Below, piece by piece: positions 12,812-42,531 of a stretch of DNA of 64,000 nucleotides (position 1 is the stretch's first letter; every line of letters starts with the position of its first letter). The notes under the pieces were generated by a model. That model ran no database searches and was not told where the DNA came from. It saw only the letters and a program-made list of their open reading frames with translations. The translations under genes were made by a program, and so were the position numbers. The DNA comes from Streptomyces griseiscabiei (GTDB taxonomy: Bacteria; Actinomycetota; Actinomycetes; Streptomycetales; Streptomycetaceae). Location of the stretch: contig NZ_JAGJBZ010000002.1 in assembly GCF_020010925.1 (NCBI RefSeq), forward strand, positions 3,658,001 through 3,722,000, in the 5' to 3' direction.

Positions 12812-12917
12812 GGGCTTCCTCTCGGGTGGTGCGGTGACAGGGTGTGGGTGGTGCGGGAACGGGTGTCGGGCCGGGCGGAGGGGGCGCATCGGGCCGAGAG
12901 GCGCGGCGGTGTCGCCG

Positions 12918-14426: not shown

Positions 14427-14518
14427 GCGCCTGGCTCCTCGCCCTTCGTCCCGTCCGTCGGCCCGGCCGACCTCGTCCGGCCGGACCGCGGGTGTACGTG
14501 TTCGCGGCTGTCCGTGTG

Positions 14519-15280
14519 TCAGCCGCCGAGCAGGGTGCCGCCGCTGGCGTCGATGAACCCGCCGGTGATCCAGCGGGCGTCGTCGGAGGCCAGGAAGGCG
14601 ACCACGTCGGCGATGTCACGGGTCTCGCCGACCCGGTTGAAGGCGGACAGGGCCGCCATCTGCTCGACGACCTCCGGGATGTCGAAGACCGGGGTGCCGT
14701 TGTTGGTGATGCCGGGGGCCACCGAGTTGACCGTGATGCCCCGGCCGCTCAGGTGCTTGGCGAAGTGCAGGGTGAGCTGTTCCACCGCGCCCTTCGTCAT
14801 CGCGTACGCCACTTCCTGCGGGTTGGCGAAGCGGGTCAGCCCGGAGGAGATGTTGATGATGCGCCCGCCGTCCTGGAGGATGCCGAGCATCCGCTGGACG
14901 ATGAAGAACGGCGCCTTGGCGTTGACCGCGACCAGCCGGTCGAAGATCTCCGGAGTGACCTCCTCGGGGGCCACGCCGCCCATGACGCCCGCGTTGTTCA
15001 CCAGGATGTCGAGCCCGGTCGCGCCGTGCTCCTTGAGGCCCGCCTCCAGTGCCTCGAACAGCGCGTCCACGTCACCGGGGACACCCAGTTCGGCCCTGAC
15101 GGAGAACGCCTTGCCGCCCGCCTCCGCGATACCGGCGACGACCCTCCCGGCCGCGTCGGCGTCGGTGTTGTAGTGCACCGCGACCAGTGCGCCGTCCTGT
15201 GCGAGACGCTCGGCGGTCGCCCGGCCGATTCCTCGGCTCGAACCCGTGACGAGCGCGGTATTGCCGGCGAGCCTGCTCAT
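14519..15280 (-). CDS. SDR reductase acting with the adjacent angucycline oxygenase (LanV / UrdMred type)
   Basis: 253 residues of the classical SDR fold: TGSSRGIGRATA for NADP binding, NNAGVMGG, catalytic Ser in NISSG, and YAMTKGAV giving Tyr-x3-Lys. In angucycline pathways this reductase works on the oxygenated tetracycle, as in LanV, GilR-independent routes and the reductase half of PgaM/UrdM. In PgaM and UrdM the oxygenase and reductase are encoded as one fusion; here they are separate genes sharing ATGA at 15277-15280, so coupling may keep them stoichiometric. Confidence 0.88.
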   Translation of the reverse strand: MSRLAGNTALVTGSSRGIGRATAERLAQDGALVAVHYNTDADAAGRVVAGIAEAGGKAFSVRAELGVPGDVDALFEALEAGLKEHGATGLDILVNNAGVMGGVAPEEVTPEIFDRLVAVNAKAPFFIVQRMLGILQDGGRIINISSGLTRFANPQEVAYAMTKGAVEQLTLHFAKHLSGRGITVNSVAPGITNNGTPVFDIPEVVEQMAALSAFNRVGETRDIADVVAFLASDDARWITGGFIDASGGTLLGG

Positions 15281-16809: not shown

Positions 16810-16811
16810 GG

Positions 16812-17756
16812 TCAGCGCCGCCGCTCCGCGTGGTCCTTGGCGTGGCCCAGCGTCGCCCGGCTGTTGGTGCTCAGCGCCGAGCGCACGTACTCCCGGGCGT
16901 CGGCGACGGTGGCCTCGTCGCCGAGGATCTTCGCGATGTTGGCGGTGTTGAGCACCACCGTGTGCTGCGAGGTGGCCCGGACACCGCCGTCGTTCTCGGT
17001 GAAGGTCCAGATCCCGGTGTGCAGCGTCATCAGCGCGGGCAGGGTGACCTGCTTGTACGCGATCTTCCGGTGCGGGAAGGCCACCCGGTACGACTTGGTG
17101 GTGTGCGTCGAACCGTCCTTGGCGCGGGTGTCCATCTCCAGGACCTGCAGTCCCGGGGTGTCCTCGGAGAATCGCACGGACGCCACGTGCGGCAGCCGCT
17201 CGACCCACAGGTCGGCCTCGTCGATGAAGTCGTACGCGTCCTTCGCGGAGCCGGCGATCTGCACGGTGTCCTCGAAGGAGAACGTCAACTCCTCTGTGCC
17301 ATAAGCGAGTTCGACGTTCGACTTCAGTGCGGCCAGCTCGGAGCGGGAGTTGCGGTCGACGGCCTCGTCGATCCACTTCAGCCCCTCGGGGTCGTCGTCC
17401 ACCGCCCGGTAGTCGTGCAGCAGCCGCACCCGCGAGGAGGAGTCCGACAGCGGCTCGATGATCCAGGTGCCGCCCATCGCCGCGACCGGCGGCGTGGAGA
17501 CCTCCTGGCGGAAGGTGATGCGCAGCGCCCGCGGATCCAGGGTGCGGCGCGAGGTCCAGTTCTTCGCCTCGCCGTTGGCGGTGGCCCAGATCCGGATGCG
17601 CTCCTGGCCCTCGCCGCGCTCCACGTGGTCGACGTAGATGGTCGGCGGGAAGATCCGCGGCCAGTTCTCCACCTCGGCGACAAGCCGGTAGACGGCGTCC
17701 GCCGGGGCGTCGATCGTGATGTCGTGCTCGACCTCGCGGAGGCCCTCCTGCGACAT
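16812..17756 (-). CDS. Didomain aromatase/cyclase (SRPBCC fold)
   Basis: 314 residues with two START/Bet v1-like halves. The first contains EHDITIDAPADAVYRLVAEVENWPRIF and the second TVQIAGSAKDAYDFIDEADLWVERLP, the usual duplication of type II PKS first-ring aromatases (ActVII, JadD and LanL type). It dehydrates and aromatises the first ring after C9 ketoreduction. It lies between the ketoreductase and the second oxygenase, the standard angucycline order. Confidence 0.93.
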   Translation of the reverse strand: MSQEGLREVEHDITIDAPADAVYRLVAEVENWPRIFPPTIYVDHVERGEGQERIRIWATANGEAKNWTSRRTLDPRALRITFRQEVSTPPVAAMGGTWIIEPLSDSSSRVRLLHDYRAVDDDPEGLKWIDEAVDRNSRSELAALKSNVELAYGTEELTFSFEDTVQIAGSAKDAYDFIDEADLWVERLPHVASVRFSEDTPGLQVLEMDTRAKDGSTHTTKSYRVAFPHRKIAYKQVTLPALMTLHTGIWTFTENDGGVRATSQHTVVLNTANIAKILGDEATVADAREYVRSALSTNSRATLGHAKDHAERRR

Positions 17757-17818
17757 GTCCTTACTCCTTGCTGGTCGATGCCGGTGGTGCCGGACGCGGT
17801 ACGCGTCCGGCGGGCGGG

Positions 17819-18604
17819 TCAGAAGTTGCCCAGGCCGCCGCAGACGTTGAGGGCCTGCGCGGTGATGGAGGCGGCGGTGTCGGTGGCCAGGTAGCCGATC
17901 AGCCCGGCGACCTCCTCCGGTGTGGAGTAGCGGCCGAGCGGGATCTTGGCCTGGAACTTCTCGAGGATGGCGTCCTCGCTGGTGTCGTAGGCCGCCGCGT
18001 AGCCCTGCCGGACCCGCTGGGCCATGGGCGTCTCGACATACCCGGGGCAGACCGCGTTGACGGTGATGCCGGTCGGCGCCAGCTCGTTGCCCAGTGCCTT
18101 GGTGAAGCCGACCACGCCGTGCTTGGACGCCGAGTAGGGGGCGCCCAGGACCACACCCTGCTTGCCGGCGGTGGAGGCGATGTTGATGATCCGGCCGCGG
18201 GCCTTCTCACGCATGCCCCCGGTGGTGAGCACCTCTCGGGTCATGAGGAAGACGCTGTTGAGGTTGGTGTCGATGACGTCGAACCACACGTCGTCGGCGA
18301 GGTCGGCGGTGACTCCGCCGCCGCTCCGACCCGCATTGTTGACCAGCACGTCCACCGGCCCGAACGTGTCCACGACCGCCCGCACCAGCGCCTGGATCTC
18401 GTCCCGCGAACGGACGTCGCAGGCGGCGCCGCTCGCGTTGATGCCCTCCTCGCGCAACTGCTTGACCGTCGAGTCGACCTTCTGGGCGTCCCGGGCACAG
18501 ATGAACACCCGGTGTCCGGACCCGCCCAGGGCCCGCGCGGCGGCCAGCCCGATTCCGCTGGTGGCCCCGGAGATCAGGGCCACCCGCTCGCCTTGCTGTG
18601 ACAT
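17819..18604 (-). CDS. Type II polyketide C9 ketoreductase
   Basis: 261 residues, SDR fold, close in length to ActKR. TSGIGLAAARAL binds NADPH, NNAGRSGGG includes the glycine-rich loop typical of type II PKS ketoreductases, NIASTAGKQG gives the Ser, and YSASKHGVVG the Tyr-x3-Lys. GNELAPTGITVNAVCPGYVETPMA is strongly conserved in the family. It reduces the C9 carbonyl of the nascent decaketide and so directs first-ring closure. It lies 66 bp downstream of the ACP gene. Confidence 0.95.
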   Translation of the reverse strand: MSQQGERVALISGATSGIGLAAARALGGSGHRVFICARDAQKVDSTVKQLREEGINASGAACDVRSRDEIQALVRAVVDTFGPVDVLVNNAGRSGGGVTADLADDVWFDVIDTNLNSVFLMTREVLTTGGMREKARGRIINIASTAGKQGVVLGAPYSASKHGVVGFTKALGNELAPTGITVNAVCPGYVETPMAQRVRQGYAAAYDTSEDAILEKFQAKIPLGRYSTPEEVAGLIGYLATDTAASITAQALNVCGGLGNF

Positions 18605-18669
18605 GTGCTCCCCTTTGTGGATCGGTGGCGCGGCCCGGCGAGGCGAGACCGCGGTGGTGGCTGCGTCGG

Positions 18670-18939
18670 TCAGGTCGTGCTGGGCACCACGAGCTGCTCG
18701 TTGACAAGCCGGAGGAGGGTACGCGGGGTGTCGGTGATGCCCAGCGCGTCGTCGTCGAGGCTGATCCCGAACTCGCGCTCGATGCTCCCGCAGGTCTCCA
18801 GCAGCGCCAGCGACTCGTAACCGAGGCTGTCGAAGGCGATGTCGAGGATGTCGGCCCCGGAGTCGACCCCCTCGGGGACACCGGCGGACGTGTGCAGGAT
18901 CCGCTTGAGATCGTCGATGGTGAACTCGTGCTTGCTCAT
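18670..18939 (-). CDS. Type II PKS acyl carrier protein (angucycline)
   Basis: 89 residues with the phosphopantetheine Ser38 in FDSLGYESLALLE, the form typical of aromatic polyketide ACPs. The ATG at 18939 is preferred because GGGAG lies 11 bases upstream; an in-frame GTG at 18951 would sit on that site. It carries the decaketide on KS-alpha/CLF, encoded just upstream. Position between CLF and ketoreductase is invariant in this class. Confidence 0.95.
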   Translation of the reverse strand: MSKHEFTIDDLKRILHTSAGVPEGVDSGADILDIAFDSLGYESLALLETCGSIEREFGISLDDDALGITDTPRTLLRLVNEQLVVPSTT

Positions 18940-18994
18940 CGTGTGGGTCACTCCCTGTCGTGTGGGGCGTCCGTCGCGGGCGCTGTGGCCCGGC

Positions 18995-20209
18995 TCAGCC
19001 GGCCCGTCGTACGACGACGGCCGAGTTGAATCCGCCGTGTCCGCGGGCCACGACCAGAGCGGTGTGGACGTCCGCGGAGCGGGGCCGGTCGGTCACCAGG
19101 TCGAGTTCGTACGCCTCGTCCGGCGACACGTTGACCGTCGGTGGGATGGTGCGGTCGCGGATGGACAGCAGGGCCGCCACGACGTCCAGCGGCGCGGCAC
19201 CCGAGTGCAGTCGGCCGGTCATCGTCTTGGGCGCGGTCACCGGCACTCCGCCGGGGCCGAACACCGCCTTGAGGGCGTCCGCCTCGATACGGTCCAGCTC
19301 GGGGACGGCCGCCGCGTCCGTGAAGACGACGTCGATGTCGCCCGGCGCCGATCGGGCGTCGTCCAGGGCCAGTTCGATCGCTCGGCGCAGACCGGGCGGT
19401 CGCCCGGTGGAGGGTGCGGGATCGAAGGTGGCCGCGTACCCGGCGAGTTCGCCGTACACCCGCGCCCCGCGCCGACTGGCCGCCTCGGCGTCCTCCAGGA
19501 CGACGATCGCGCCGCCCTCGCCCGGTACGTGCCCGGCCGCCGCGGTGTCGAAGGGCAGATAGGCCCGGTCCGGGTCGTCCGAGGGGCTCAGCCTGCCGCC
19601 CGCAAGCTGGGCGACCCAGCCCCACGAGCAGATCGAGGCGTCCACCCCGCCGGAGACGATGACACGGGAACCCTTGCGGATCTGCCGCCGTGCCTGGGCG
19701 AGGGCGTCGAGGCCGCCCGCCTGGTCGCTGACGACGACCCCGCTCGGCCCGCGCATCCCGTGCCGGATGGAGATCTGGCCGGTGTTGACCGCGTAGAACC
19801 AGGCGAAGGACTGGTACGCGCTGACGTGCGCGCCGCCCTTGCTCCACAGGTTGCGCAGCTCGCGCTCGCCGAACTCGAACCCGCCGGACGAACTCGCGGT
19901 GATGACACCCGCGTCGAACTCCGGCAGCTCGTCCGGCTTGATGCCCGCGTCCTCCAGTGCCCAGTCCGCGGCCAGCAGCGCCAGCCGCGTCATGTGGTCG
20001 GTCTGGGCGATCAGCCGGCTCGGCAGATGCTCCTCCGCCACGAACCCGGGTACTTCGCCCGCCAGCCGGGACGGGTAGCTGTCCGGGGTGAAACGGGTGA
20101 CGGGCCCGATACCGCTGCGCCCCTCGCAGGTCGCCGTCCAGTAGTCCTCGACGCCCAGCCCGTTGGGGGCCGTGACGCCCACTCCGGTGACCACCGCTGC
20201 GTGTGTCAC
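18995..20209 (-). CDS. Chain length factor (KS-beta)
   Basis: 404 residues with the KAS fold but with Gln163 (SDQAGGLDA) where KS-alpha has its active cysteine, the diagnostic change of CLFs. It pairs with KS-alpha to set chain length, most probably decaketide given the angucycline setting, and supports decarboxylative priming of malonyl-ACP. The GTG start has AAAGGAG six bases upstream. KS-alpha ends 32 bp before it. Confidence 0.95.
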   Translation of the reverse strand: MTHAAVVTGVGVTAPNGLGVEDYWTATCEGRSGIGPVTRFTPDSYPSRLAGEVPGFVAEEHLPSRLIAQTDHMTRLALLAADWALEDAGIKPDELPEFDAGVITASSSGGFEFGERELRNLWSKGGAHVSAYQSFAWFYAVNTGQISIRHGMRGPSGVVVSDQAGGLDALAQARRQIRKGSRVIVSGGVDASICSWGWVAQLAGGRLSPSDDPDRAYLPFDTAAAGHVPGEGGAIVVLEDAEAASRRGARVYGELAGYAATFDPAPSTGRPPGLRRAIELALDDARSAPGDIDVVFTDAAAVPELDRIEADALKAVFGPGGVPVTAPKTMTGRLHSGAAPLDVVAALLSIRDRTIPPTVNVSPDEAYELDLVTDRPRSADVHTALVVARGHGGFNSAVVVRRAG

Positions 20210-20241
20210 GCCATGCTCCTTTCCACCTGTGCGGTCGGCTG

Positions 20242-21504
20242 TCAGCCGCGGTCGGCCGTGGTCAGAACCATGGCGCTCTGGAATCCGCCGAATCCGCTGC
20301 CGACGGTCAGGACGGTGTCGGTGCGCCACTCGCGGGCGGTCAGCGGCACGTAGTCCAGGTCGCACTCCGGGTCCGGGGTGTGCAGGTTGGCGGTCGGCGG
20401 CACCAGGTCGTTCTCGATGGCGAGAGCCGACGCCGCGATCTCGATGGAGCCGATCGCGCCCAGCGAGTGGCCGACCATGGACTTGATGGAGCTGACCGGC
20501 ACGCGCCGGGCATGCTCGCCGAGACTCTGCTTGAACGCGGCGGTCTCGTGCCGGTCGTTCTGCTTGGTGCCGGAGCCGTGCGCGTTGATGTAGTGGATGT
20601 CCTCGGGGTTGAGCCGGGACTCGTGCAGGGCCATCCGGATCGCCTCGGCCATCTCGCGGCCGTCCGGCCGGAGCCCGGTCATGTGGAAGGCGTTGCACCG
20701 TGAGGCGTACCCGGCGATCTCGGCGTACACATGGGCGCCGCGCTTGAGGGCGGCCTCCCGCTCCTCCAGCACGAAGACGGCGGAGCCCTCACCGAGGACG
20801 AATCCGTTACGGGTCCCGTCGAAGGGCCGGGACGCGTGCTCGGGGTCGTCGTTGCGCGACGTGGTCGCCTTGATGGCGTCGAAGCACGCCACGGTGATGG
20901 GCGAGATCGGGGCGTCGGTTGCTCCCGCGATCATCACGTCGACCGAGCCCTCCCGGATCAGGTCGACCGCGTGGCCGACCGCGTCGAGACCGGAGGTGCA
21001 GCCCGTGGAGACCACCGTGGAGGGCCCCTCGGCGCCCACCGCCCACGCCACCTCGGCGGCGAACGAGCTAGGCACGAAGTGGTCGTAGAGGTGGGGGACG
21101 GCGTAGTTGTGGTCGACCGGGTCCAGCCGGCCGCCGTCGCTGACCACCTTGTATTCCTGGTCGAGGCTCATGGTGGCGCCGACCGCGCTGCCGATGGTGA
21201 CACCCGTGCGGCACGGGTCGAGATCGGTGATCTCCAGCCCGCTGTCGGCCAGTGCCTCGCGGGTGGCGACGGTGACGAACTGGGCAGCCCGGTCCATCCG
21301 TCTGATCTCCTGCGGAGTCAGACCGTGTGCCTCGGGCGAGAAGTCGATCTCGGCGGCTACCCGTGAGCGGAACTGCGACGGGTCGAAGAAGGTGATGCCG
21401 CGGGTCGCGGTGCGGCCCTCGCTCAACAGGCTCCAGAAGTCCTTGACGCCGACTCCTCCGGGAGCCAGGACCCCTATTCCGGTGATGACTATGCGACGGC
21501 CCAC
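20242..21504 (-). CDS. Type II PKS ketosynthase alpha
   Basis: 420 residues. The active site is Cys169 in [16 protein letters not shown], with His309 in [11 protein letters not shown] and His346 in [11 protein letters not shown], all canonical for aromatic KS-alpha. It elongates the polyketide by decarboxylative condensation as a dimer with the CLF. It lies between the small cyclase and the CLF as in jad, urd, lan and pga clusters. Confidence 0.96.
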
Positions 21505-30721: not shown

Positions 30722-30869
30722 AATAACAACGGCGAATAACGGTCGCGGCGCCGCACGTCCTGTGCGTGCGCGCACCGCTATTCGTCCTGGCCGGATAAAA
30801 GTCGCTCGGCCGAGGGCCCCCAGCGGGACCCCACGGGAATCCAACGGAGTCAAGGGAAAGGAAAGAGTC

Positions 30870-31739
30870 ATGGGAGCGGACAATACGGCTCTGGTCATCG
30901 GAGCCACCGGAAACGTGGGCCCCATCGTCGTCCGACAACTGATCGACGAGGGTGTCACCACGCGAGCCCTGCTCCTGGCGGACGACCCCAGGGCGGGACG
31001 CCTGCCGGACGAGGGGTTCGAGGTCTTCCACGGCGACCTGGCCGACCCCGACAGTCTGCTGCCCGCCCTCGACGGAGTCGAGTCGGTCCTGCTGATGTGG
31101 CCGTTCTTCACCCTGAACGTCGACACGGCGCCGGCGGTCCTGGAGCGCATCGCACGACAGGCCAAGCGCATCGTCTTCGTCTCCTCGATCGGCGTGCACA
31201 TCGGCTACGAGCACACGGACAACAACTGCCACGCCTACCTCGAGGAGCTGATCGAGAAGACCGGTCTGGAGTGGACCTTCCTGCAGACCACCGGGTTCGC
31301 GGCCAACGCCCGGCTCTCCTACGCCCAGCAGATCAAGGCCACCGGAATCGTGCGGTCCCCCTACGGCGCCGCCGCCCGCTCCTCCATCCACGAAGGCGAT
31401 GTCGCCGCGGTCGCGGTACAGGCCCTGCAGAGCAGTGAACTCGCCGGCCGGCGCCTGGTCGTCACCGGGCCCGAGGTCCTCACCCAGATCGAGCAGGTGA
31501 AGATCATCGGCGAGATCATCGGGACCGAGCCGACCTGGCAGGACGTACCGGCCGAGGCCGCGCTGAAGGCCATGGTGTCCGCGGGCTGGCCGCCCGCGTA
31601 CGCCAGCGGCGCGCTCGAGTACTTCGAGATGCTCACCAAGGAGCCCGAGCTGATCACCACGACCGTCGAGGAGGTCCTCGGCCGTCCGCCGCGCACCTTC
31701 CGCGAGTGGGCGGTGGAGTTCGCCGATGACTTCCGCTGA
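30870..31739 (+). CDS. NmrA-type NAD(P)-binding reductase
   Basis: 289 residues of the atypical SDR / NmrA group. ALVIGATGNVGPIVVRQLI carries GxxGxxG; the SDR Tyr-x3-Lys is absent, as usual in this group. Homologous proteins act as NADPH-dependent quinone or imine reductases or as redox sensors. It shares 14 bases with the next gene, so the two are co-translated. Confidence 0.82.
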   Translation: MGADNTALVIGATGNVGPIVVRQLIDEGVTTRALLLADDPRAGRLPDEGFEVFHGDLADPDSLLPALDGVESVLLMWPFFTLNVDTAPAVLERIARQAKRIVFVSSIGVHIGYEHTDNNCHAYLEELIEKTGLEWTFLQTTGFAANARLSYAQQIKATGIVRSPYGAAARSSIHEGDVAAVAVQALQSSELAGRRLVVTGPEVLTQIEQVKIIGEIIGTEPTWQDVPAEAALKAMVSAGWPPAYASGALEYFEMLTKEPELITTTVEEVLGRPPRTFREWAVEFADDFR

Positions 31740-32376
31740 CGCGGCACGCGAGGGCTTCCGCACCTTCCTGGTCCTGCGCACGGACGGGACCGGGGTGGCC
31801 CAGGAGGCCGTGCGGGCGCTGGTGGAACAGACCTCGGACCCGAGCCGCCCCGACGGATTCCTCTCCTCCCGGATCCACCTCGGTCTCGACGGGGACGTCG
31901 TCGTGCACTCCGTCGCCTGGCGCGACGAGACGAGCGCCCGCGACGGCTACCCGGCCCGCGTCGAAGAGGCACTGCTGGACCGGCTCGGCAGGAAAGCCCT
32001 GCTCCGCACCGACCTGGTCGGCGGCACGCCGGAACCGGGTGTACGGGGCCCGTCGGCGAACAGCCCTCCCGGTCTGGTCTGCGTCGCGGTCCGGCACGTC
32101 GCCGACCGGGCGGCCGCCGAGGCCATGGCGGACCTGCTGCGCCGCAGCGGGGACTGGAAGAAGGACTTCCCCGGGTTCGTCTCGGCGACGCCGTACATCG
32201 GCACCGACGGCCGGACCTATGTCAACTACCCGCAGTGGACGGACCGCGGCGCGTTCGACGCGTACATGAGTGATCGGCGCAACGTGGACGGGCAGCAGGG
32301 CATCAGCGCCCTGGAGGTCGCGCCGCCGGACCTGTTCCTGTGCACCCTGGTCGCCGAGACCGTCGCGGCCGGCTGA
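31726..32376 (+). CDS. Tandem ABM-like (antibiotic biosynthesis monooxygenase-type) protein
   Basis: 216 residues with two weakly similar ferredoxin-like halves, the first ending near residue 105 and the second from VCVAVRHVADRAAAEAMADLL. Such dimeric alpha-beta barrels include cofactor-free monooxygenases and cyclases acting on polyketides, but no catalytic residues can be assigned here. It starts within the NmrA-type gene (14-base overlap), suggesting joint action on one substrate. Confidence 0.55.
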   Translation: MTSADAAREGFRTFLVLRTDGTGVAQEAVRALVEQTSDPSRPDGFLSSRIHLGLDGDVVVHSVAWRDETSARDGYPARVEEALLDRLGRKALLRTDLVGGTPEPGVRGPSANSPPGLVCVAVRHVADRAAAEAMADLLRRSGDWKKDFPGFVSATPYIGTDGRTYVNYPQWTDRGAFDAYMSDRRNVDGQQGISALEVAPPDLFLCTLVAETVAAG

Positions 32377-32504
32377 CCGAATGACCGGACGACCGGATGA
32401 GGGGAGCGGCCCTCCAACCGGGAGCGGCGCGCTCCCCGGCCCTCCGCGTCCTCCCAGGTCCCGCCCACCGCCGCATCCGTATTCGCCCGGAGGAAGAGAC
32501 AGGC

Positions 32505-33305
32505 ATGACAACGGACGCACGGTCCACCCGAAGCACCGGATCACTGACCCAGGGACACCTCTCCCCGCTCGACCAGATCCGGCTGTTCGAGAAGAAGTAC
32601 GACGTGGTGAGCACCTCCATCGTCGACCGGTTGGACCCCGCCCCGACGTGGCGCTGTCTCGACCTCGGAGCCGGCGCCGGATCCATGTCGTACTGGCTGG
32701 CGGAACGGGTCCGCGAGGGCTCGGTGCTCGCGCTGGACACCGACACCGGGTACCTGGAGCCCGACCGGGCGGCCAACCTGAGCGTCCTTCAGGCGGACCT
32801 GACCACGGCGGAGTTCCCGGACGGCTCGTTCGACCTGATCCTCGCCCGAGCCGTCCTCGAGCACGTGCGGGAGCCGCAGAAGGCGCTCGGCCGCATCACC
32901 CGCTGGCTGGCGCCGGGCGGCTGGCTGGTGGCCGAGGACTTCTACTACCTGCCCGCGGATCACGCCCCCACCCCCGTCGGCCGGGCCCTCGTCGGCGGCT
33001 ATGTGCGCCGGATGGAGGCCCAGGGCGCCGACATGCGGTGGGCCAGGGCTCTGCCGGCCGCCCTCGGCCGGGCGGGCCTCACGGACGTCGAGTCCAGGGT
33101 GACGCCCGCCGGTCCCGGCCAGTCGCCCGCCGACGACGAGCTGATCGGCACCCGGCTGCGCCAGGAGGGCCACACCCTGGTGGAGAGCGGCCTGGTCACG
33201 GCCGAGCAGCTCACCGACTTCCTCGACGCCCTCGGCACGCCCCGCGGCCAGGACATGACCACGCTGCTGGTCTCCGCGTGGGGACGCCGGCCGACGGAGG
33301 GCTGA
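32505..33305 (+). CDS. SAM-dependent methyltransferase (class I)
   Basis: 266 residues. Motif I is CLDLGAGAGSMSYWLAERV, the acidic residue after strand 2 is LALDTD, and FDLILARAVLEHVREPQKAL matches the UbiE/Methyltransf_11 core. AGGAAGAG precedes the ATG. It probably O- or C-methylates a small molecule made by this gene group; the acceptor is unknown. Confidence 0.85.
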   Translation: MTTDARSTRSTGSLTQGHLSPLDQIRLFEKKYDVVSTSIVDRLDPAPTWRCLDLGAGAGSMSYWLAERVREGSVLALDTDTGYLEPDRAANLSVLQADLTTAEFPDGSFDLILARAVLEHVREPQKALGRITRWLAPGGWLVAEDFYYLPADHAPTPVGRALVGGYVRRMEAQGADMRWARALPAALGRAGLTDVESRVTPAGPGQSPADDELIGTRLRQEGHTLVESGLVTAEQLTDFLDALGTPRGQDMTTLLVSAWGRRPTEG

Positions 33306-33439: not shown

Positions 33440-34162
33440 ATGCCCTCCAGCCGTAACAATTCGGTGCCGCACCGAAAAGCCTCGAATGCGCTGAACGACA
33501 CAGGGAACGAAGACAATTGCCGGGACGATTCCGTCCCTCGGTTCTTCGTCCTTCTCGGGCCGGACTACGCGGGAAAGTCCTCGGTGCTCACCGAATTGCG
33601 GCGCTCGGCCGCACCCTGGCGGCTCGTCTCCCTCGACGAGACCTTCCTGGCCCCGGAACACGCCCTCATCGCCCGGCTGCGCAGGGACGTTGTGCAGGAC
33701 GTCGCCCCGCACGAGACCCGGTGGTCCCCGGACTTCCTCGCCGCGATGGTGCACACGGCGGTCGTGCATCTGCGGGACCAGCTCCTGAACGGCGATCCCC
33801 GCATCCCCGCGGTCGTCGACTCCTACTACTACAAGTTCCTCGCCAAGTGCCGGCTGGCCGGTGTGCCCGACGACCCCCTCCTCACCTGGTGGCGGTCCTT
33901 CCCCCGGCCGGGCCGGGTCATCTACCTCGACGTCACCCCCGAGAGCGCCTGGACCCGCTCGCGCGAGGGCGCCGACCTCAACCCACTGGAGCACTACGGC
34001 CCGCTGCCCGGCCCGTACGGCTTCAAGCGCTACCAGACCGACCTCGACCGGCTCGTGCGCGAGGAGATACGGGACCTGCCCATGACCGTCCTCACGGAGC
34101 AGAGCGACGCCGCGCGGACCGCGGCCACCGTACGGGAGCTGATCACCAATGAACTCGGCTGA
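33440..34162 (+). CDS. P-loop kinase-like protein (thymidylate-kinase-like fold)
   Basis: 240 residues with a hydrophilic 30-residue N-terminal tail, then Walker A at 40-48 (GPDYAGKSS). A lid-like stretch TPESAWTRSREGADLNPLEHYGP resembles the LID region of dTMP kinases, where arginines contact the phosphates. It could phosphorylate a nucleotide, sugar or small alcohol. It opens a five-gene unit with the GH3 ligase, overlapping it by 14 bases; a housekeeping role is therefore unlikely. Confidence 0.65.
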   Translation: MPSSRNNSVPHRKASNALNDTGNEDNCRDDSVPRFFVLLGPDYAGKSSVLTELRRSAAPWRLVSLDETFLAPEHALIARLRRDVVQDVAPHETRWSPDFLAAMVHTAVVHLRDQLLNGDPRIPAVVDSYYYKFLAKCRLAGVPDDPLLTWWRSFPRPGRVIYLDVTPESAWTRSREGADLNPLEHYGPLPGPYGFKRYQTDLDRLVREEIRDLPMTVLTEQSDAARTAATVRELITNELG

Positions 34163-35867
34163 CCCAGGGACGATCACGGACCGCGCGGCACGCTACACCG
34201 CGCGTGTGCAGGCGGAACGGGCACAGCTGAGCTCCGCCCTCGACGACCTGGCCGGACACCAGCGTCACGTCCTCACCGACCTCCTGCGGTTCAACGCCGG
34301 AACCGACTACGGCACCGCGCACGGCTTCGGCCGTGTCCGCACCCTCGACGAGTACCGCCGGGCGGTGCCCATCCAGACGTACGCCGATCTGGAACCCTGG
34401 ATCGAGCGGAGTGCGGCCGGTGAGGCGAACGTCCTCACCGCCGACCGGCCCGCCGTCTTCTTCACCAGCAGCGGAAGCACCGGCGCCCACAAGAAGATCC
34501 CGGTCACCCCCCGGTTCATGCGCACCACCTTCTTCCCCTTCTACTACGCGGCCTGGGCACCGCTGCTCACCCACTTCCCCGAGGTGCTCCAGCGCTCGGA
34601 CGCGGTGCTCAACCTCAAGCACGACCCGCTGTCCGCCCCGCCCACCACCAGCTCCGGCAAGCCCCATGTCGGCGCGAGCCAGGTGAATTTCGGGGACACC
34701 TTCGGTGAGCCCCTGTCCGCCGAGCCCGGCACGGTCGACACGGCCTGGGCGGAACTGCCCGTACCCGTCGACGCGCGGGACCACCTGGAGAAGGCGTATC
34801 TGCGGCTGCGCATGGCGGTGACGGGCGACGTCCGCTGCGTCATCGGGATCAACCCCGCGATGGTCGCCGCCCTGCCCCACCAACTGCGGCTGTGGTGGCC
34901 GCGGATCGTCAAGGAGATCCGCGACGGCACCCTCGGCGGTCACCCGCACGGCAGCCCCGACCCGCTCCGGGCAGCCGAACTGGAGGCCCTCGCCGACCGG
35001 TTCGGGACGATACGCCCCGCTCATGTGTGGCCCCGGCTGCGGGCCCTGTTCTGCTGGACCACCGGCCTCGCCACCCTCTATCTGCCCCGGCTGCGCGAGG
35101 AGTTCGGCGCCGGCGTCAGCGTGCTGCCCGCCCCGGTCGCGGCCTCCGAGGGCCCGGTGGCGGTCGCCCTGGACCGCCACGGCAGCGCGGGAAGCCCCGT
35201 CGCCACCGCCTCCGTGTACGAGTTCGTCGACGCGGACGACGACCCGACGCCCGACGCCGAGACCCTCTCGCCCGAGGACCTCGAACCGGGGCGCGACTAC
35301 CACGTCGTCTTCAGCCACGTCGGAGGCCTCTACCGCTACGCCGTCGGCGATGTCGTCCGGGTCGTCGACCGGACCGGCGGAGTACCCCGCCTGGCCTACG
35401 CGGGCCGCGCCACCCGCAGCGACCACGCGGGGGAGCGGCTGCGCGACGCCCAGGTCACCCGGGCCGTGGCCCGTGCCCTCGACGCGAGCGGACTCGAATT
35501 GCGCAACGTCTCCGCCCGGGTGGACACCACCGACGGAACCGGCCGGTACGTCTTCGCGGTTTCCCCCGCGGGCACCCCGTGGCACGACGACGAGACCGCC
35601 GCGTTCGATGCGCGGCTCGACGACGGACTGGCCCGCGAGTCGGCGGGCTACCGCGCGGCCCGGGCCGACGGCCGACTCGCCGCGCCCACCACGCTCAGGC
35701 TGCCCGCCGACGCCTTCCTGCGCGACTGGCAGGACACCGTCGCCGGCGGTGTCAGGCCCACCCAGGTCAAGGACCGGCTCTTCCGACAGGATCCCGGCCA
35801 GTGGGAGCGGCTCGTCGGCCGCTACGGCGTGGCACCGGACCCGCTGCCCCAGAAGGAGCGCGCATGA
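34149..35867 (+). CDS. GH3-family acyl-acid amido synthetase
   Basis: 572 residues, the usual GH3 length. The P-loop-like ATP motif TSSGSTG lies at about 106-112 followed by HKKIPVT, and YRYAVGDVVRVV near residue 395 is the conserved hinge motif. GH3 enzymes adenylate a carboxylic acid and transfer the acyl to an amino acid; plant members conjugate auxin and jasmonate, and bacterial ones are scattered and mostly uncharacterised. Here it is locked by overlaps between a kinase and a methyltransferase gene, with an aminoacyl-tRNA-synthetase-like protein downstream, so an amide-forming step in a small-molecule pathway is likely. Confidence 0.88.
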   Translation: MNSADPGTITDRAARYTARVQAERAQLSSALDDLAGHQRHVLTDLLRFNAGTDYGTAHGFGRVRTLDEYRRAVPIQTYADLEPWIERSAAGEANVLTADRPAVFFTSSGSTGAHKKIPVTPRFMRTTFFPFYYAAWAPLLTHFPEVLQRSDAVLNLKHDPLSAPPTTSSGKPHVGASQVNFGDTFGEPLSAEPGTVDTAWAELPVPVDARDHLEKAYLRLRMAVTGDVRCVIGINPAMVAALPHQLRLWWPRIVKEIRDGTLGGHPHGSPDPLRAAELEALADRFGTIRPAHVWPRLRALFCWTTGLATLYLPRLREEFGAGVSVLPAPVAASEGPVAVALDRHGSAGSPVATASVYEFVDADDDPTPDAETLSPEDLEPGRDYHVVFSHVGGLYRYAVGDVVRVVDRTGGVPRLAYAGRATRSDHAGERLRDAQVTRAVARALDASGLELRNVSARVDTTDGTGRYVFAVSPAGTPWHDDETAAFDARLDDGLARESAGYRAARADGRLAAPTTLRLPADAFLRDWQDTVAGGVRPTQVKDRLFRQDPGQWERLVGRYGVAPDPLPQKERA

Positions 35868-36760
35868 CCATGCACGAGACCCCGACCGTCACGGACGCGG
35901 TGCCCCTGGGCCCGCTGGAACGCACCGCGCTGCTGACCGCGGCGCTGCGCGCCGCCGAGACGAGCCGTTCGGACCGCCTCTACACGGACCCGTACGCCGC
36001 CGGTCTGGCCGGCGCCGCGGGCTGGGCACTGCTCGCCGAGATCGCCGCGGTCACCGGCCGCCGCACCGACGAGTCCGACGTGCCGAGTACCCCCGACTTC
36101 AACGCCATCCGCACCCGCTTCCTCGACGACCACCTGCGCCGCCTCACCTTCGAGGGCGGCATACGCCAGGTCGTGATGGCGCCCGCCGGCCTCGACACCC
36201 GGGCCTGGCGGCTGCGCTGGCCGGCCGGCACCCGCTGGTTCGAGATCGACCAACCGGCTCTGCTCGCCCGCAAACGGCAGCGGATGGCCGAGGCCAGGCC
36301 CTGCGCGGACCTCCGTACCGTCCCGGCCGATCTCACCGGTCTCGACTGGGAGACGACACTGCGGGAGCGCGGCTACGACCCGGCCCGCCCCTCGGTGTGG
36401 GTGCTGGAGGGACTGCTGTACTACCTGCCGTCGGACGAGGTGCGCCGACTGCTGACCCGCATCGCCGCCTGCTCCGCCCCCGGCAGCAGGATCGCCGCCG
36501 ACATGGTGAACACCGCCGCCCTGACGCTGCCCGAGATGGAGCCGCTGCTCTCCGTGTTCGAAGGCTGGGGCACTCCCTGGGTGTCCGGCTGCGATGTCCC
36601 CGAGCGTCTCTTCGACCAGTGCGGCTACACGGTGAGGGCCGTGCAGCCCGGCCAGCCCGGGGCCGACTTCGCCCGCTGGCCCGACCCGGTGCCGCCCCGC
36701 AGCGCACGAGGAGCACGCCGGGTGTTCTTCGTCCACGGCGCCCTCCGGATCCCGCGGTGA
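35864..36760 (+). CDS. LCM-family SAM-dependent O-methyltransferase
   Basis: 298 residues of the leucine carboxyl methyltransferase-like family. FNAIRTRFLDDHL near residue 85, the motif I variant QVVMAPAGLDTRAWRL and WFEIDQPALLARKR are family signatures. Members methylate carboxylates or hydroxyls of polyketides and peptides. ATGA overlap with the GH3 gene (35864-35867) and GTGA with the next gene. A carboxyl methylation of the GH3 product, or of its acid substrate, would fit. Confidence 0.88.
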   Translation: MTMHETPTVTDAVPLGPLERTALLTAALRAAETSRSDRLYTDPYAAGLAGAAGWALLAEIAAVTGRRTDESDVPSTPDFNAIRTRFLDDHLRRLTFEGGIRQVVMAPAGLDTRAWRLRWPAGTRWFEIDQPALLARKRQRMAEARPCADLRTVPADLTGLDWETTLRERGYDPARPSVWVLEGLLYYLPSDEVRRLLTRIAACSAPGSRIAADMVNTAALTLPEMEPLLSVFEGWGTPWVSGCDVPERLFDQCGYTVRAVQPGQPGADFARWPDPVPPRSARGARRVFFVHGALRIPR

Positions 36761-37935
36761 GCGAGGCAGCCACCGCCGTCACGACCGTGCCGCGGCCCCG
36801 GACCGGGACCGGGAGCCGATCGGCCCGGCACCGGGTCCTGCTGGCCCCCGTCACCGTCACGCCGTCCAAGCCGCTCACCCCGAGTCACCTCAAGGGACTG
36901 CTGTGGTCGGACGTGATGTACCGCGCCACCCGCCAGGTGGCCGAGGTGAGCCTCCGCTACAGCCACACCACCTACCACCCCACCGAACAGACCCTCGGCT
37001 TCTGGGAGTTCCTGGACCGCCGCTACGGCGACATCGACTACGCCTCCCTCGACGAGTGCGGCATCGGGGAGCTGTACGTGGCCTTCCGCGCCGCCGGCGA
37101 TACCGTCCCCGCGGCCGCCCTGCGTCCCTACGCGGACGCAGTCGAGCAGGGCTGGACGCATCCCGCCGCCACCCGGGTCCTCGGCATCTGGACCCGGCAG
37201 TACGAGGCGCTCGGCCTGACCGACCCCGGACTGCTCGCCCACCAGCCGCCGGGGCTGGGCCTGACCGAGATGATCGACAGGCTCGGAGCCCTCGGGATGT
37301 GCCTTGACCACCGGCCGCTCGGAGGCCCCGTCTTCCTCGACCTCACACGCCACGGGCTGCCGCTGCGCCCCCTGGTCGGTTCCGACGGCCGGCCCAACTA
37401 CCTGGCCTGCGCCCTGCGTGAACTCATGCCGCTGGCAGCCGAGTACGACGAGGTCGTCCTGCTCTACGACAGTCAGCTGGACCCCGACTACCAGCGCCTC
37501 GCCCGGGTCCTCACGGCGCTCGGGCCCTGTGTGGTCCGGGTGCCCGTCGGACGGGTCCCGATCGACGGCACGATCCGCTCCGCACGCGAGGGCGGCTGGC
37601 GCGATCACCACGCCGGCGCCCTGCTCGACGCGGCCGGATCCGGGCACAGTCCGGCCGCCGTACGGCTCGGTATGCGGCTGTACTTCATCGCCGTACTCGG
37701 TCCCGGGCACGCCGAGGGCTACCGGTCGGAGCTGCTGCGCCAGTATCTCGGCCGCGCCGAACGTCTCATCGCCGCGGCGCTCACGGATCCGCGGTCACCG
37801 GAGCGGTCCCTCGCCGAGCGGGTGGACGGGCACAGAAGGGTTCGACTGCACGTCGATCCCTATAAGTTGACCTCGTCCCTCCTCGGCCGACGCCACCGGC
37901 CGGCGGGCGACCTCCTGACAGAGGTGTATCTGTGA
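36757..37935 (+). CDS. Degenerate class I aminoacyl-tRNA synthetase-like protein (arginyl-type)
   Basis: 392 residues from a GTG overlapping the methyltransferase stop. The N-terminal part, PSKPLTPSHLKGLLWSDVM (36-54), lines up by eye with the HIGH region of arginyl-tRNA synthetases, with HIGH changed to TPSH. SDGRPNYLACALRELMPLA (209-227) and DEVVLLYDSQLDPDYQRL resemble the ArgRS segment where the chain runs ...DGTPtYLtRDiAyh..., and DGTIRSAREG (270-279) sits where KMSKS is expected. No anticodon-binding domain of normal size follows. It may activate an amino acid without tRNA, or bind aminoacyl-tRNA for amide synthesis. The fold assignment comes from pattern reading and is the key uncertainty. 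Confidence 0.55.
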   Translation: MSEAATAVTTVPRPRTGTGSRSARHRVLLAPVTVTPSKPLTPSHLKGLLWSDVMYRATRQVAEVSLRYSHTTYHPTEQTLGFWEFLDRRYGDIDYASLDECGIGELYVAFRAAGDTVPAAALRPYADAVEQGWTHPAATRVLGIWTRQYEALGLTDPGLLAHQPPGLGLTEMIDRLGALGMCLDHRPLGGPVFLDLTRHGLPLRPLVGSDGRPNYLACALRELMPLAAEYDEVVLLYDSQLDPDYQRLARVLTALGPCVVRVPVGRVPIDGTIRSAREGGWRDHHAGALLDAAGSGHSPAAVRLGMRLYFIAVLGPGHAEGYRSELLRQYLGRAERLIAAALTDPRSPERSLAERVDGHRRVRLHVDPYKLTSSLLGRRHRPAGDLLTEVYL

Positions 37936-38825
37936 CCTCGGACCACGACCCATACGGGGACACGACCGCGCCGGTATCCGCAGCCGCAGCCGGAGACATC
38001 GACGCCGGTACCGACACGGTGCAGCGAGCCCTGCGGACCGCCCTGCGGGAACGATTCAGCCGCGCGCATCCCGAGCTGACCTCACGGCACGACCTCTCGA
38101 CGACGGAGGGACTGGCCTCGGTGGGCGCCGCGTCCGCCGAGGCCGACACCACTCTGGTCGCCGTGGTGGTGCGGGACCTGGACCTCGCAGCCTGGGCCGG
38201 GCAGACCTGCGCGTTCGCCCTGGGCCTCGACGCGGCGCAGGGCGCCGCCTGGCGGCGGGCCTTCACCCGGACCGTGTTCCTCGCGGGTAACCCGGCGGAA
38301 CTCAGGGCCCGGTTCCCGTTCGCCCGGATGACCCGGGACGCGTCGGTCGCCTGGACCGCGCCCGGGCCACCCGCGGCCACCGCCGCGCTGCGCCGCCTGC
38401 TGAAACTGCTGCATGCTCCGGCGGAGGTCCCGAACGGCGGGGACATCGCCTTCGACGTGCCCCACCCGAAGCTCCAGGTGCTCCATCCGGTGCTCCGGGT
38501 GCCAGGGCCGGCGTCCGGCGGCGCTCCGGCGCCGTCCTGTCCGCCTGTCGGCGGAGTGGTCCACCTCGCCACTGCCGACTGCACGATGTCGGCCGCCCTG
38601 GTCCACCTGAACCACCTGCTGACCGAGGCCGTTCTGGACGGACTGGTCGCACCGGGAGACCGCTTCGTGCTGCGCGGGGTTCCCCGCCTCACAGCAGGAC
38701 CGGAACCCTTCGACGCCGTACGTGTCGTCCCGGACGAACGCCTCCCCGACCGGCTGCGACTGGCCGCCGCGCTGACCGCGACCACGCGCCGGACTCCGGC
38801 TCGATCGAGGACGGGGCGGTTCTGA
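37932..38825 (+). CDS. Uncharacterised protein, last gene of the kinase-GH3 unit
   Basis: 297 residues, GTG start overlapping the stop of the synthetase-like gene (GTGA at 37932-37935). No catalytic motif was recognised. There is a short N-terminal Ala/Asp-rich segment, then an alpha/beta region (TTLVAVVVRDLDLAAWAGQ) and a C-terminal basic tail. From memory it may belong to a Streptomyces family catalogued as DUF6182, which I cannot verify. Its constant coupling to the upstream gene suggests a complex with it. Confidence 0.65.
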   Translation: MTSDHDPYGDTTAPVSAAAAGDIDAGTDTVQRALRTALRERFSRAHPELTSRHDLSTTEGLASVGAASAEADTTLVAVVVRDLDLAAWAGQTCAFALGLDAAQGAAWRRAFTRTVFLAGNPAELRARFPFARMTRDASVAWTAPGPPAATAALRRLLKLLHAPAEVPNGGDIAFDVPHPKLQVLHPVLRVPGPASGGAPAPSCPPVGGVVHLATADCTMSAALVHLNHLLTEAVLDGLVAPGDRFVLRGVPRLTAGPEPFDAVRVVPDERLPDRLRLAAALTATTRRTPARSRTGRF

Positions 38826-39522: not shown

Positions 39523-40734
39523 TCAGGAGAGGCGGACAGGCAGTTTGTCGAAGGCGACCAGGCGGTCCGTGCGGACCTCCAGCGGATCGCCTACGAGTTC
39601 GACCGAGGAGTGGCGTTCGGCGACGAGGCCGAGGATCACTCTGGTCTCGGCCCGCGCCAGCAGCTGTCCGGCACAGGCGTGGGTACCGAGCCCGAACGTC
39701 AGGTTCCGGCTCGCCTCCGGCGGCCGGGCGTGGTCGAACTCGTCCGGGTTCTCGAACACCGCCGGGTCCCGGTTCGCGGCGCCGATCGGGTACTTGACGC
39801 AGGACCCGGCGGGGATGCGCACGCCCTGGATCTCGACGTCCTCGTCGGGGAAGCGGGTGACGATGAGTTCCACGGGGTTCAGCCGGGCCAGTTCGTTGAT
39901 GAACGCGTCCCGGATCTCCGGCCTTTCCCTGAACTCCGCCATCAGGTCCGGTCGTTCGGCGAACAGCTTGAAGCCGGCGCCGATGAGGTAGGCGGGGTTC
40001 GGGCCGCCCGACATGTACAGCAGCACCGTGGTCTCCAGGACCTCGCGCCAGGTCAGCTCACCGCGCCCGTGGGCGGCGAGGAGCTCGTCGACCAGACCGT
40101 TCCCGGGCTCGTCGGCGCTCTGCTTCTCCCGTACGTACCGCTCGGTCTCGGCGAACATGAAGGTCATCCCGGCCAGCGACCTCGCGTGGATGTCCTCACC
40201 CGGTGCGGTCGCGTTGATGAGCATCGCGTCCCACAGCGCCCAGAACATCCCCTCCACATCACCCACGGGCATGTCGAGGATGCGGCACATCGTCAGATGG
40301 GTCGGCATCACGCCCAGGTCGAAGTGGGCGTCCACCACATCGCCGGGGCCGAGCCGGTCGAGTGCCTCGACGGTGAAGTCGTGCGTCAGCCGGGCCCAGG
40401 TGCCGATCATCTTCGGTGTCAGCCAGCGGTTGGTCAGCCGCCGCATCCGGGTGTGCTCCGGTGCGTCCTTCGACAGGACCGTGTTGTCGAACGCGGTCCA
40501 CGGGTGCGGCGGCGCACCGGGGACGGCGAAGGACGGCGGCTCCGCGATCCGCATGCACGGACGTTTCGCGTGGTGCATGGTGTCCGCGTGGTTCAGCACC
40601 ACGTAGGTGTTCTCCCTGGTCCGGTGCACCGGCGCGATCGCCCGTGCCCGCTCGTACGCCGGGTACGGGTCGGCCCGGAACCGCTCGTCGTTCCACGGGA
40701 ACAGGGCCGAGGCGTCCTCGATGGTCAGGCTCAT
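39523..40734 (-). CDS. Cytochrome P450 with atypical oxygen-activation site
   Basis: 403 residues. Haem ligand Cys354 in FGLGTHACAG; ExxR is E281-R284 (NELARL). In the I helix the usual acid-alcohol pair (as in AGHETT) is replaced: SGGPNPAYL puts Pro245 and Asn246 at those positions. Loss of the Thr is rare; P450cin (CYP176A), which oxidises 1,8-cineole, has Asn there too and also uses a flavodoxin, as encoded immediately upstream here. The overall sequence is otherwise not close to P450cin. Hydroxylation of a small oxygenated substrate at the head of a degradation route is inferred from the Baeyer-Villiger and hydrolase genes nearby. Confidence 0.92.
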   Translation of the reverse strand: MSLTIEDASALFPWNDERFRADPYPAYERARAIAPVHRTRENTYVVLNHADTMHHAKRPCMRIAEPPSFAVPGAPPHPWTAFDNTVLSKDAPEHTRMRRLTNRWLTPKMIGTWARLTHDFTVEALDRLGPGDVVDAHFDLGVMPTHLTMCRILDMPVGDVEGMFWALWDAMLINATAPGEDIHARSLAGMTFMFAETERYVREKQSADEPGNGLVDELLAAHGRGELTWREVLETTVLLYMSGGPNPAYLIGAGFKLFAERPDLMAEFRERPEIRDAFINELARLNPVELIVTRFPDEDVEIQGVRIPAGSCVKYPIGAANRDPAVFENPDEFDHARPPEASRNLTFGLGTHACAGQLLARAETRVILGLVAERHSSVELVGDPLEVRTDRLVAFDKLPVRLS

Positions 40735-40755
40735 CTACCGGTCACTCCTTCTGAT

Positions 40756-40775
40756 CGGGGCGGGGCGGGGCGGGG
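40756..40775. repeat. CGGGG tandem repeat (4 units)
   Basis: Four perfect CGGGG units fill the gap between the P450 start and the flavodoxin stop. On the coding strand it reads as C-runs ahead of the P450 gene; it may be slippage-prone. No other function is suggested. Confidence 0.5.
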
Positions 40776-41228
40776 TCAGACGGTCACGAGGGCCAGGAGG
40801 TCACGGGCCCACGCGGCGGCGAGGTCCGTGGCGGGGGTCGTCGACGCGGCGTCGTGCCTGGCCGTGGTCCCGAGCTGCTCCGCGCCGAGCTCCAGGAGGG
40901 CCGTACGGAGGGTCTCGATCGCGTTGTTGAACGTCTCGTAGACGCTGTCGCCGAGCCCGAACGCCGCGAACCGCACACCGGTCAGATCGGGGCGCTCCGC
41001 CATGAGGGCCTCGTAGAACGGCGCCGCCGTCTCCGGCAGTCCGCCCTCCCCGTAGGTGGAACTCACGAACACGGCGATCTCCATGGCCGGAAGATCGGAC
41101 ACCTCGATGTCGGTCAGCTCCGTGGTGACGGTCTCGAATCCCTGGCCACCGAACGCGGCGGCGATGTCGTCGGCGGCCATCTCCGCGTTGCCCGACTCGG
41201 TCCCGAACAGGACGTGTACGACGGTCAT
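40776..41228 (-). CDS. Flavodoxin, electron donor to the P450
   Basis: 150 residues starting MTVVHVLFGTESGNAEMAADDI, with the FMN phosphate loop FGTESGNAE, the STYGEGGLPETA loop and FAAFGLGDSVYETF ring-stacking region of flavodoxin/CysJ-type domains. P450s usually take electrons from a ferredoxin; flavodoxin partners such as cindoxin are uncommon. Gene order reductase-flavodoxin-P450, with gaps of 1 and 41 bp, shows a complete electron chain. Confidence 0.92.
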   Translation of the reverse strand: MTVVHVLFGTESGNAEMAADDIAAAFGGQGFETVTTELTDIEVSDLPAMEIAVFVSSTYGEGGLPETAAPFYEALMAERPDLTGVRFAAFGLGDSVYETFNNAIETLRTALLELGAEQLGTTARHDAASTTPATDLAAAWARDLLALVTV

Positions 41229-41229
41229 C

Positions 41230-42531
41230 TCATGTCTCCTGGGTTGCGGACGGTCCGGTCGTGGCCGTCGGGGTGGGGAGCAGGGCATCGGGTCCCGTCG
41301 CCGCGGCGAGGAGCTCGTCCCTGGTGGTGAACTTCGTCCGGCATCTGTCGGGACGGGCACGTCGTCGCTCCGCCTCGTCGATGCGCTGCCACGCCTCGAA
41401 GCCCACCGCCGAGGCGGGCAGCCGGTCACGCAGCCCGGCCAGGCCCGCACGGCGGCGTGGTTCCTGGCCGCGAAGGAACGCGAGGATGTCCTTCGCCGTC
41501 TCCGCCGCCAGCTTGCGGTTCTCCGCCAGATTGCCCAGCCGGCCGGTGGCGGGCCCGCCCACGCGGAACACGTTCGGCGCCTCAGGACCGTTCGACCGGG
41601 CCAGATGTGCGGCCGGGGCGTCGAAGCCGATCGCCGTGATGACGGTGTCGGCGTCGAGGTGGTCGACCGGGCCGCCGCCCGCGCGGCGCGTCGTCACGCG
41701 GACGCGGCCGTCGTGCCGCCGGATCGAGGTCGGAACCCGCTCGAACCGCACGTCCACCGTCGTGCGCGGGGGCACCGAGTCCTCGTCGACCAAGGGGGTT
41801 CCGTCCACGCGTACCTGGACACCCACGACGTGCGCGAGTTCCTTCACCATCGACGCGTCCCACTTCGCCAGCCGCGACGGACATCGCCCCAGGATGTGGA
41901 TGGTCCGCACCGGGTCGGGTGCCACCGTGCGCAGGGCGTCGTCGTCGACGTCGGACGCGATGAAGTCCAGGTCGGACTTCGACAGCAGCCGCGCGACGTC
42001 CACCGCGACGTTCCCGGTGCCTAGGATGACGACCTCCGAACCGAGCCCCCGGAGACCGTCCCGCCGGTGCCGCAAGCGGGCGTCCGGGTCCGAGTTCAGA
42101 AGCCGGACCAGGTCTCCGGCGCCGACGATCCGGGCGTCCGGGTCCTGGTCGATGTCCAGTGGCCGGTCCGCCCCCAGCCCGGTCGCGAGGACGACCGCGT
42201 GGAAGTTCTCCAGCAGCGTGTCGAAGCCGAGGTCGGTCCCGACGGACACGTTCCCGACGAACTCCACTCCCGGCTGGGCGAAGAGCCGCTCGAACTGACG
42301 CGACACCGCCTTCGCGCCCTGGTGGTCCGGGGCGATGCCGTACCGCACCAGCCCGAAGGGCGTCGGCAGCGAGTCGAGGACGGCGACCTCGATGTCCGGT
42401 TGTCCCTTGCGCAGGGCCTGGGCCGCGTAACACCCGCTGGGGCCGGCGCCGACGACCGCCACCCGGAACGGGGACCCGTCGCCGGTGGGGGAGGCCGCGC
42501 GGCTCGGCGCTGTCTCTGCCGGAGTTCTCAT
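41230..42531 (-). CDS. FAD-dependent NADPH:flavodoxin/ferredoxin reductase (adrenodoxin-reductase/FprA type)
   Basis: 433 residues. FAD motif VAVVGAGPSGCYAAQALRK, LPTPFGLVRYGIAPDH, NADPH motif VILGTGNVAVDVARLL and ITAIGFDA are FprA/adrenodoxin-reductase landmarks. It passes electrons from NADPH to the flavodoxin encoded one base downstream. Its start is about 50 bp from the 19-bp operator at 42582-42600, so it is the first gene of the P450 operon. Confidence 0.92.
   Translation of the reverse strand: MRTPAETAPSRAASPTGDGSPFRVAVVGAGPSGCYAAQALRKGQPDIEVAVLDSLPTPFGLVRYGIAPDHQGAKAVSRQFERLFAQPGVEFVGNVSVGTDLGFDTLLENFHAVVLATGLGADRPLDIDQDPDARIVGAGDLVRLLNSDPDARLRHRRDGLRGLGSEVVILGTGNVAVDVARLLSKSDLDFIASDVDDDALRTVAPDPVRTIHILGRCPSRLAKWDASMVKELAHVVGVQVRVDGTPLVDEDSVPPRTTVDVRFERVPTSIRRHDGRVRVTTRRAGGGPVDHLDADTVITAIGFDAPAAHLARSNGPEAPNVFRVGGPATGRLGNLAENRKLAAETAKDILAFLRGQEPRRRAGLAGLRDRLPASAVGFEAWQRIDEAERRRARPDRCRTKFTTRDELLAAATGPDALLPTPTATTGPSATQET

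Follow-up and report, generated by a model that had tools for sequence, protein, structure and literature searches.

We found that five overlapping genes of Streptomyces griseiscabiei belong to a recurrent cassette in which a homologue of arginyl-tRNA synthetase (ArgRS), here abbreviated ARS for both protein and gene, is near-obligately paired with a protein of family DUF6182. The genes lie in a 64,000-nucleotide stretch of the 10.6-Mb genome (RefSeq GCF_020010925.1, contig NZ_JAGJBZ010000002.1, positions 3,658,001 to 3,722,000 of the forward strand; hereafter the window). The cassette probably builds a small molecule in actinobacteria. We give about an even chance to the reading that the unit represents a natural-product cassette in its short form, in which two ATP-driven acid activations would lead to a small conjugate with an ARS step independent of tRNA.

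Five overlapping genes form a recurrent cassette

All five frames are open on the forward strand, and successive genes overlap by 14, 4, 4 and 4 bases (Table 1), as the first-pass annotation of this DNA had described. The unit is beyond chance, since many genomes hold the frames as conserved families with recurring overlaps; unrelated open reading frames overlapping by accident are ruled out, as gene orders recur across loci as well.

Table 1. Features of the unit and its upstream genes, in window positions
Feature	Position	Strand	Remark
P-loop kinase, thymidylate-kinase-like, 240 aa	33440..34162	+	start ATG
GH3 acyl-acid amido synthetase, 572 aa	34149..35867	+	start ATG
LCM-family S-adenosylmethionine (SAM) methyltransferase, 298 aa	35864..36760	+	start ATG
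ArgRS-like class I synthetase homologue (ARS), shortened C-terminal part, 392 aa	36757..37935	+	start GTG
SKPLTPSHLK, ARS codons 37-46, equivalent of ArgRS HIGH motif	36865..36894	+	alignment A1 (31 of 120 listed relatives plus 6 loci); 2zue PTKPLHMGHAR aligned
DGTIRSAREGG, ARS codons 270-280, equivalent of ArgRS loop DGKPFKTR(A/E)G	37564..37596	+	
DUF6182 protein, 297 aa, partner of ARS	37932..38825	+	start GTG
NmrA-like, ABM monooxygenase-like and methyltransferase genes	30762..33305	+	upstream of unit; synteny in L002 only

When we scanned one genome per species, we found 43 loci with a relative of ARS (57-83% identity); the genera are Streptomyces, Kitasatospora, Wenjunlia, Saccharothrix, Actinomadura and Protofrankia. 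Within Streptomyces, 20 of 295 species genomes carry the ArgRS-derived protein. The ARS family is not general, since only 2 of 296 genomes were positive in a phylum-wide search. A plasmid search found one of 72,556 records, at 40.6% identity. Among the matches listed for the family, all named relatives carry the label hypothetical or uncharacterised.

Gene starts and cassette forms in the 43 loci come from a simple gene caller and gene presence from tblastn. GH3 is present in 41 loci (both misses are contig starts), DUF6182 in 41 (both misses are contig ends), and LCM in 40, where two misses are contig starts and the third, L007, has GH3 and ARS genes that overlap by 4 bases without LCM. The kinase is present in 37 loci, with four misses at contig starts, and no kinase was found near the ARS gene in L006 or L038. 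In L006 (7305-7649) only the end of GH3, about 105 residues, remains, although the long form is otherwise complete. Kinase and GH3 genes share exactly 14 bases at 17 of 37 junctions, and ARS and DUF6182 genes share exactly 4 at 32 of 40.

Twenty loci carry a nine-gene long form (kinase, GH3, LCM, a flavin adenine dinucleotide (FAD) protein, ARS, DUF6182, LysR domain, hydrolase, methyltransferase), nine carry exactly the five genes of the window, four lack only the kinase of the long form, and ten show other or cut forms. The extra genes of the long form at L044 match weak FAD/halogenase-type models, LysR_substrate (1.4e-19), Abhydrolase_1 (2.7e-26) and Methyltransf_25 (2.8e-24). Short forms are scattered over the ARS tree, with at least seven changes forced by well-supported branches; the label 'no FAD' needs 12 changes on that tree, 7 of them forced, a count that loci truncated at contig ends inflate (weak or partial genes were left out of trees and distances). 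Neighbourhoods in which the genes do not travel together, one of two outcomes that would have spoken against the earlier proposal, were not what we saw across the 43 loci. Its five-gene boundary held in part: the exact set recurs, but the commonest form has nine genes and distant relatives have smaller sets.

ARS has a class I core homologous to ArgRS

ARS gave no match in Pfam or NCBIfam, a PDB search with the single sequence returned nothing of weight, and its profile reached ArgRS 2zue only at E = 0.45. An initial hhalign comparison of 38 close relatives with an ArgRS template gave 4.8e-5 over 125 columns only, and a later profile-profile comparison gave 3.1e-7, or 5.2e-7 once the wrong-frame row L099 was removed (the template comprised 17 of 25 fetched loci, L099 included). 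The closest fold of ARS is that of ArgRS, and the alignment extends to the ArgRS C-terminus. On the strength of the fold and the profile-profile comparison, therefore, ARS has a class I catalytic core and is homologous to ArgRS over that core, as the first-pass annotation had suspected; the other outcome named against that proposal, a predicted structure lacking a synthetase core, likewise did not occur. It is not the housekeeping enzyme, since the genome has its own ArgRS elsewhere.

The motifs that had been read from the letters are present: TSSGSTG in GH3, VTPSKPLTPSH at the HIGH place of ARS and DGTIRSAREGG in the KMSKS-equivalent loop. The second His of the HIGH equivalent is found in every one of the 176 rows that have a residue at this place, and K38, D52 and a basic residue at 277 are kept without exception. 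After a conserved Tyr (177 of 179 rows), the Asp that we take to be the arginine recognition site of ArgRS is found in none of 179 rows. The core is homologous to that of ArgRS, but ARS has lost the arginine-binding Asp and the first HIGH His and is shorter, with 392 residues as compared to 562-628 in solved ArgRSs; about 110 residues follow residue 281, fewer than in ArgRS. The ArgRS of this genome and those of E. coli and Neisseria are themselves without KMSKS and carry DGKPFKTR instead; other actinobacterial ArgRSs have a KMSKS-type loop, e.g. RMSKRTG. Of the motif changes in the earlier reading, the altered HIGH site (TPSH) stands, but the departure from KMSKS is ruled out as a sign of decay because genuine ArgRSs share it.

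DUF6182 is the near-obligate partner of ARS

The fifth gene, at first taken for an orphan, encodes a member of the named Pfam family DUF6182 (5.7e-86). A Pth2-like domain is predicted at residues 72-161, followed by a further alpha/beta domain with invariant H228, E232 and R264 (alignment A2, 32 of 40 called DUF6182 genes). The predicted fold of residues 72-161 is like that of Pth2 peptidyl-tRNA hydrolase, but no sequence-level relation was found. Foldseek alone gave E = 0.22, with none at 0.001 or better; no member of 33 matched Pth2 PF01981; and hhalign against nine actinobacterial Pth2 sequences gave E = 0.096 over 4 columns, within the range of the controls (0.064 to 0.3). Read by eye, DUF6182 has nothing equivalent to the Lys, Gln and His of the Pth2 motif. 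One called DUF6182 gene, L040:11191-13377, encodes 728 aa and is a possible fusion or read-on frame.

The GH3 protein has intact ATP motifs

GH3 enzymes form an acyl-AMP and then an amide, and LCM enzymes form methyl esters. The GH3 protein matches Pfam GH3 (E = 6.3e-46) together with the central GH3_M and the GH3_C domain, all three over the Pfam cut-offs (157.4, 55.9 and 36.8 bits vs 23.6 each), and it matches plant GH3 structures at 2.9e-19. Its ATP motifs are intact: S108, G109, T111, G112, K115, E334, R396 and D401 are invariant in 47 rows, and S333 is kept in at least 90% of them. As far as the excerpt of PMC12493201 goes, it has GH3 fold domains and ATP motifs in common with OlsH and plant GH3 amido synthetases; in contrast, its gene context is unlike that of OlsH, and its score is far under the cut-off of the NCBIfam equivalog for the OlsH lyso-ornithine lipid synthetase (88.1 vs 620 bits). 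The LCM protein (Pfam LCM, 5e-51; TIGR00027, 215 bits over a cut-off of 93.55) probably carries out carboxyl O-methylation. The kinase has the Walker A motif GPDYAGKS and in Pfam only a weak AAA_16 match (0.0069). A profile of 19 relatives matches thymidylate kinase (TMK) 1e9f (E = 0.0019), and the score against the dTMP kinase model TIGR00041 is not over its cut-off (13.7 vs 83.25 bits); judged by sequence, it resembles thymidylate kinase at the superfamily level only. Its position next to GH3 is conserved across cassette loci.

Distant relatives keep ARS and DUF6182

Because they are kept across the variants L069-L076, ARS and DUF6182 are the commonest constant pair; GH3 and the TMK-like kinase are usual, and LCM and the rest are accessory. 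At L069, GH3, kinase, DUF6182 and ARS lie beside a nonribosomal peptide synthetase (NRPS). In L072-L076, two genes come after ARS, DUF6182 and GH3, one for a protein of about 780-790 aa and one for another P-loop kinase. The L073 proteins are an HMG-CoA reductase (9.5e-102) with a fused APH domain (2.1e-7) and a dNK/TMK-like protein of 288 aa, and the equivalents in L072 and L074-L076 were assigned by BLAST clustering. The L073 pair (12902-16115) stands directly after ARS-DUF6182-GH3, with an HSP90 gene next. Directly upstream of ARS-DUF6182-GH3 in L072 (10117-13511, minus strand) are TauD, transglutaminase-like, PqqD and asparagine-synthase genes, a lasso-peptide cluster set; L075 resembles this arrangement by gene sizes only. 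L070 and L071 (families from a scan of L070) carry PPDK-like, unknown, kinase, DUF6182, unknown, ARS, AfsA, KAS III, acyl carrier protein (ACP), ketosynthase (KS), HAD and AKR genes; at L070:3601-15952 a PEP-synthase-like protein is present and the two proteins without a family have 302 and 284 aa.

Proposed function and alternatives

With two enzymes that would activate acids, one that would methylate a carboxyl group and a kinase, the unit would suit the step-by-step building of a small amide or ester conjugate. We infer the substrates, reactions and step order as follows. GH3 would convert an acyl acid to its adenylate and pass it to an amine, giving an amide. ARS, as amino-acid donor or selector of this amide-building pathway, would form the adenylate of an amino acid other than arginine and, by analogy with the MetRS-like domain of PyrN and with MshC, may hand the aminoacyl group not to tRNA but to a small acceptor; its amino-acid pocket would lie at N214, C218 and A219. 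DUF6182 would work only with ARS and might complete or release its product, as the cupin beside PyrN suggests by analogy. LCM would cap a carboxylate as a methyl ester, and the kinase would phosphorylate a hydroxyl or acid of an intermediate.

Several observations weigh against this reading. The first His of HIGH is present in 0 of 176 rows with a residue there; with that residue lost throughout, adenylation by ARS is in doubt and can only be called putative. L070 and L071 have ARS, DUF6182 and kinase without GH3, and genome G150 has ARS, LCM and GH3 without DUF6182; because these genomes split them, GH3 and the ARS/DUF6182 pair need not share a step. The Pth2-like predicted fold of DUF6182 could also point to a tRNA-bound intermediate.

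A tRNA-dependent route, in which ARS charges a tRNA or acceptor stem with an amino acid other than arginine, GH3 N-acylates it, DUF6182 releases it and LCM methylates the freed carboxylate, is in our view unlikely. It draws on that predicted fold, but the Foldseek value, the control-level profile comparison and the missing motif residues tell against it, as does the short C-terminal part of ARS. Rfam and tRNA scans of the unit and window gave no match, with no tRNA gene in the window, and we know of no precedent for GH3 acting on aminoacyl-tRNA.

Somewhat less likely is that ARS has lost catalysis and senses an amino acid or regulates a second enzyme of the cassette as its subunit, in the manner of HisZ with HisG. 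Loss of the first HIGH His and the arginine-binding Asp, and the lack of an evident anticodon-reading part, would suit such a role; the unbroken conservation of the second His, K38, D52 and basic residue 277 tells against it, and a missing KMSKS is also seen in genuine ArgRSs. More doubtful again is a charge-and-release pair, in which the ArgRS paralogue would load a non-arginine amino acid on a tRNA or tRNA-like acceptor for N-acylation by GH3 and release by DUF6182; if true, it would be a new tRNA-templated small-molecule synthesis, reused in many clusters.

Least probable is that the unit makes no molecule of its own and tailors the product of an adjoining cluster, in this case the type II polyketide encoded at window 1-23393: a long form does lie within the rubiginone angucycline cluster (L013; PMC8487521, excerpt), and the distant relatives have NRPS (L069), type I polyketide synthase (L073), AfsA/KAS (L070) or AsnB/PqqD/transglutaminase (L072) genes alongside, but neighbours vary by locus (the top family outside the nine, SDR, occurs in 9 loci), the S. 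hundungensis copy is described in that excerpt as in no recognisable cluster, and the window polyketide genes are on the opposite strand, about 10 kb off.

These polyketide genes, upstream of the unit (15277-21504, minus strand; cluster about 21-23393), encode two ketosynthase-type proteins, a polyketide cyclase and an aromatic-ring hydroxylase. On the other side, cytochrome P450, flavodoxin and pyridine-nucleotide oxidoreductase genes (39523-42531, minus strand) face the unit, possibly a P450 with its own redox partners. The nearest relative, L002, shares four upstream genes with the window (YceI, NmrA, ABM, methyltransferase); the last three may be an extension of the operon rather than part of its core.

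Relation to described systems

The nine-gene block has been tabulated as rubM2-rubP4 in the rubiginone cluster of Streptomyces sp. CB02414; in the excerpted text it is judged a likely insertion with no role proposed, ARS, DUF6182 and kinase are named hypothetical, and the same block is reported from S. hundungensis (PMC8487521). It is our long-form locus L013, with sizes that agree within 3 residues, and has nine genes to the window's five. The first-pass statement that no pathway with this combination was described is thus true of function but not of the block itself. In the one open-access library searched (PMC) we found no paper joining GH3 with an aminoacyl-tRNA synthetase (aaRS) in a cluster, or GH3 with arginyl-tRNA synthetase in Streptomyces, and none on DUF6182 or an ArgRS-like ligase; the excerpt of a review of aminoacyl-tRNA-dependent enzymes does not mention GH3 or arginyl (PMC12945691).

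Two aaRS-derived ligases offer comparisons. MshC, derived from CysRS, is the cysteine ligase of mycothiol synthesis (Cys:GlcN-Ins) and uses a small-molecule acceptor; we know of no association of MshC with GH3 or DUF6182. The MetRS-like domain of PyrN, as given in the excerpt of PMC8664883, works without tRNA and passes aminoacyl-AMP to a small acceptor. The hydrazine synthases PyrN, Spb40 and Tri28 join a MetRS-derived part to a cupin (PMC8664883, excerpt), whereas ARS is ArgRS-derived and paired with DUF6182. None of the five window proteins has a cupin match, which sets them apart from PyrN-type N-N ligases.

As far as our literature searches reach, ArgRS ancestry with a DUF6182 partner has not been seen before among aaRS-derived natural-product ligases. 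PyrN and MshC are valued for the new type of bond-forming chemistry that each of them opened, and here an ArgRS-derived enzyme is strongly conserved with a partner found almost nowhere else and an adjoining GH3 ligase. If the pair is active, it would amount to a new aminoacylation enzyme, give DUF6182 a function and mark a compound class not yet seen.
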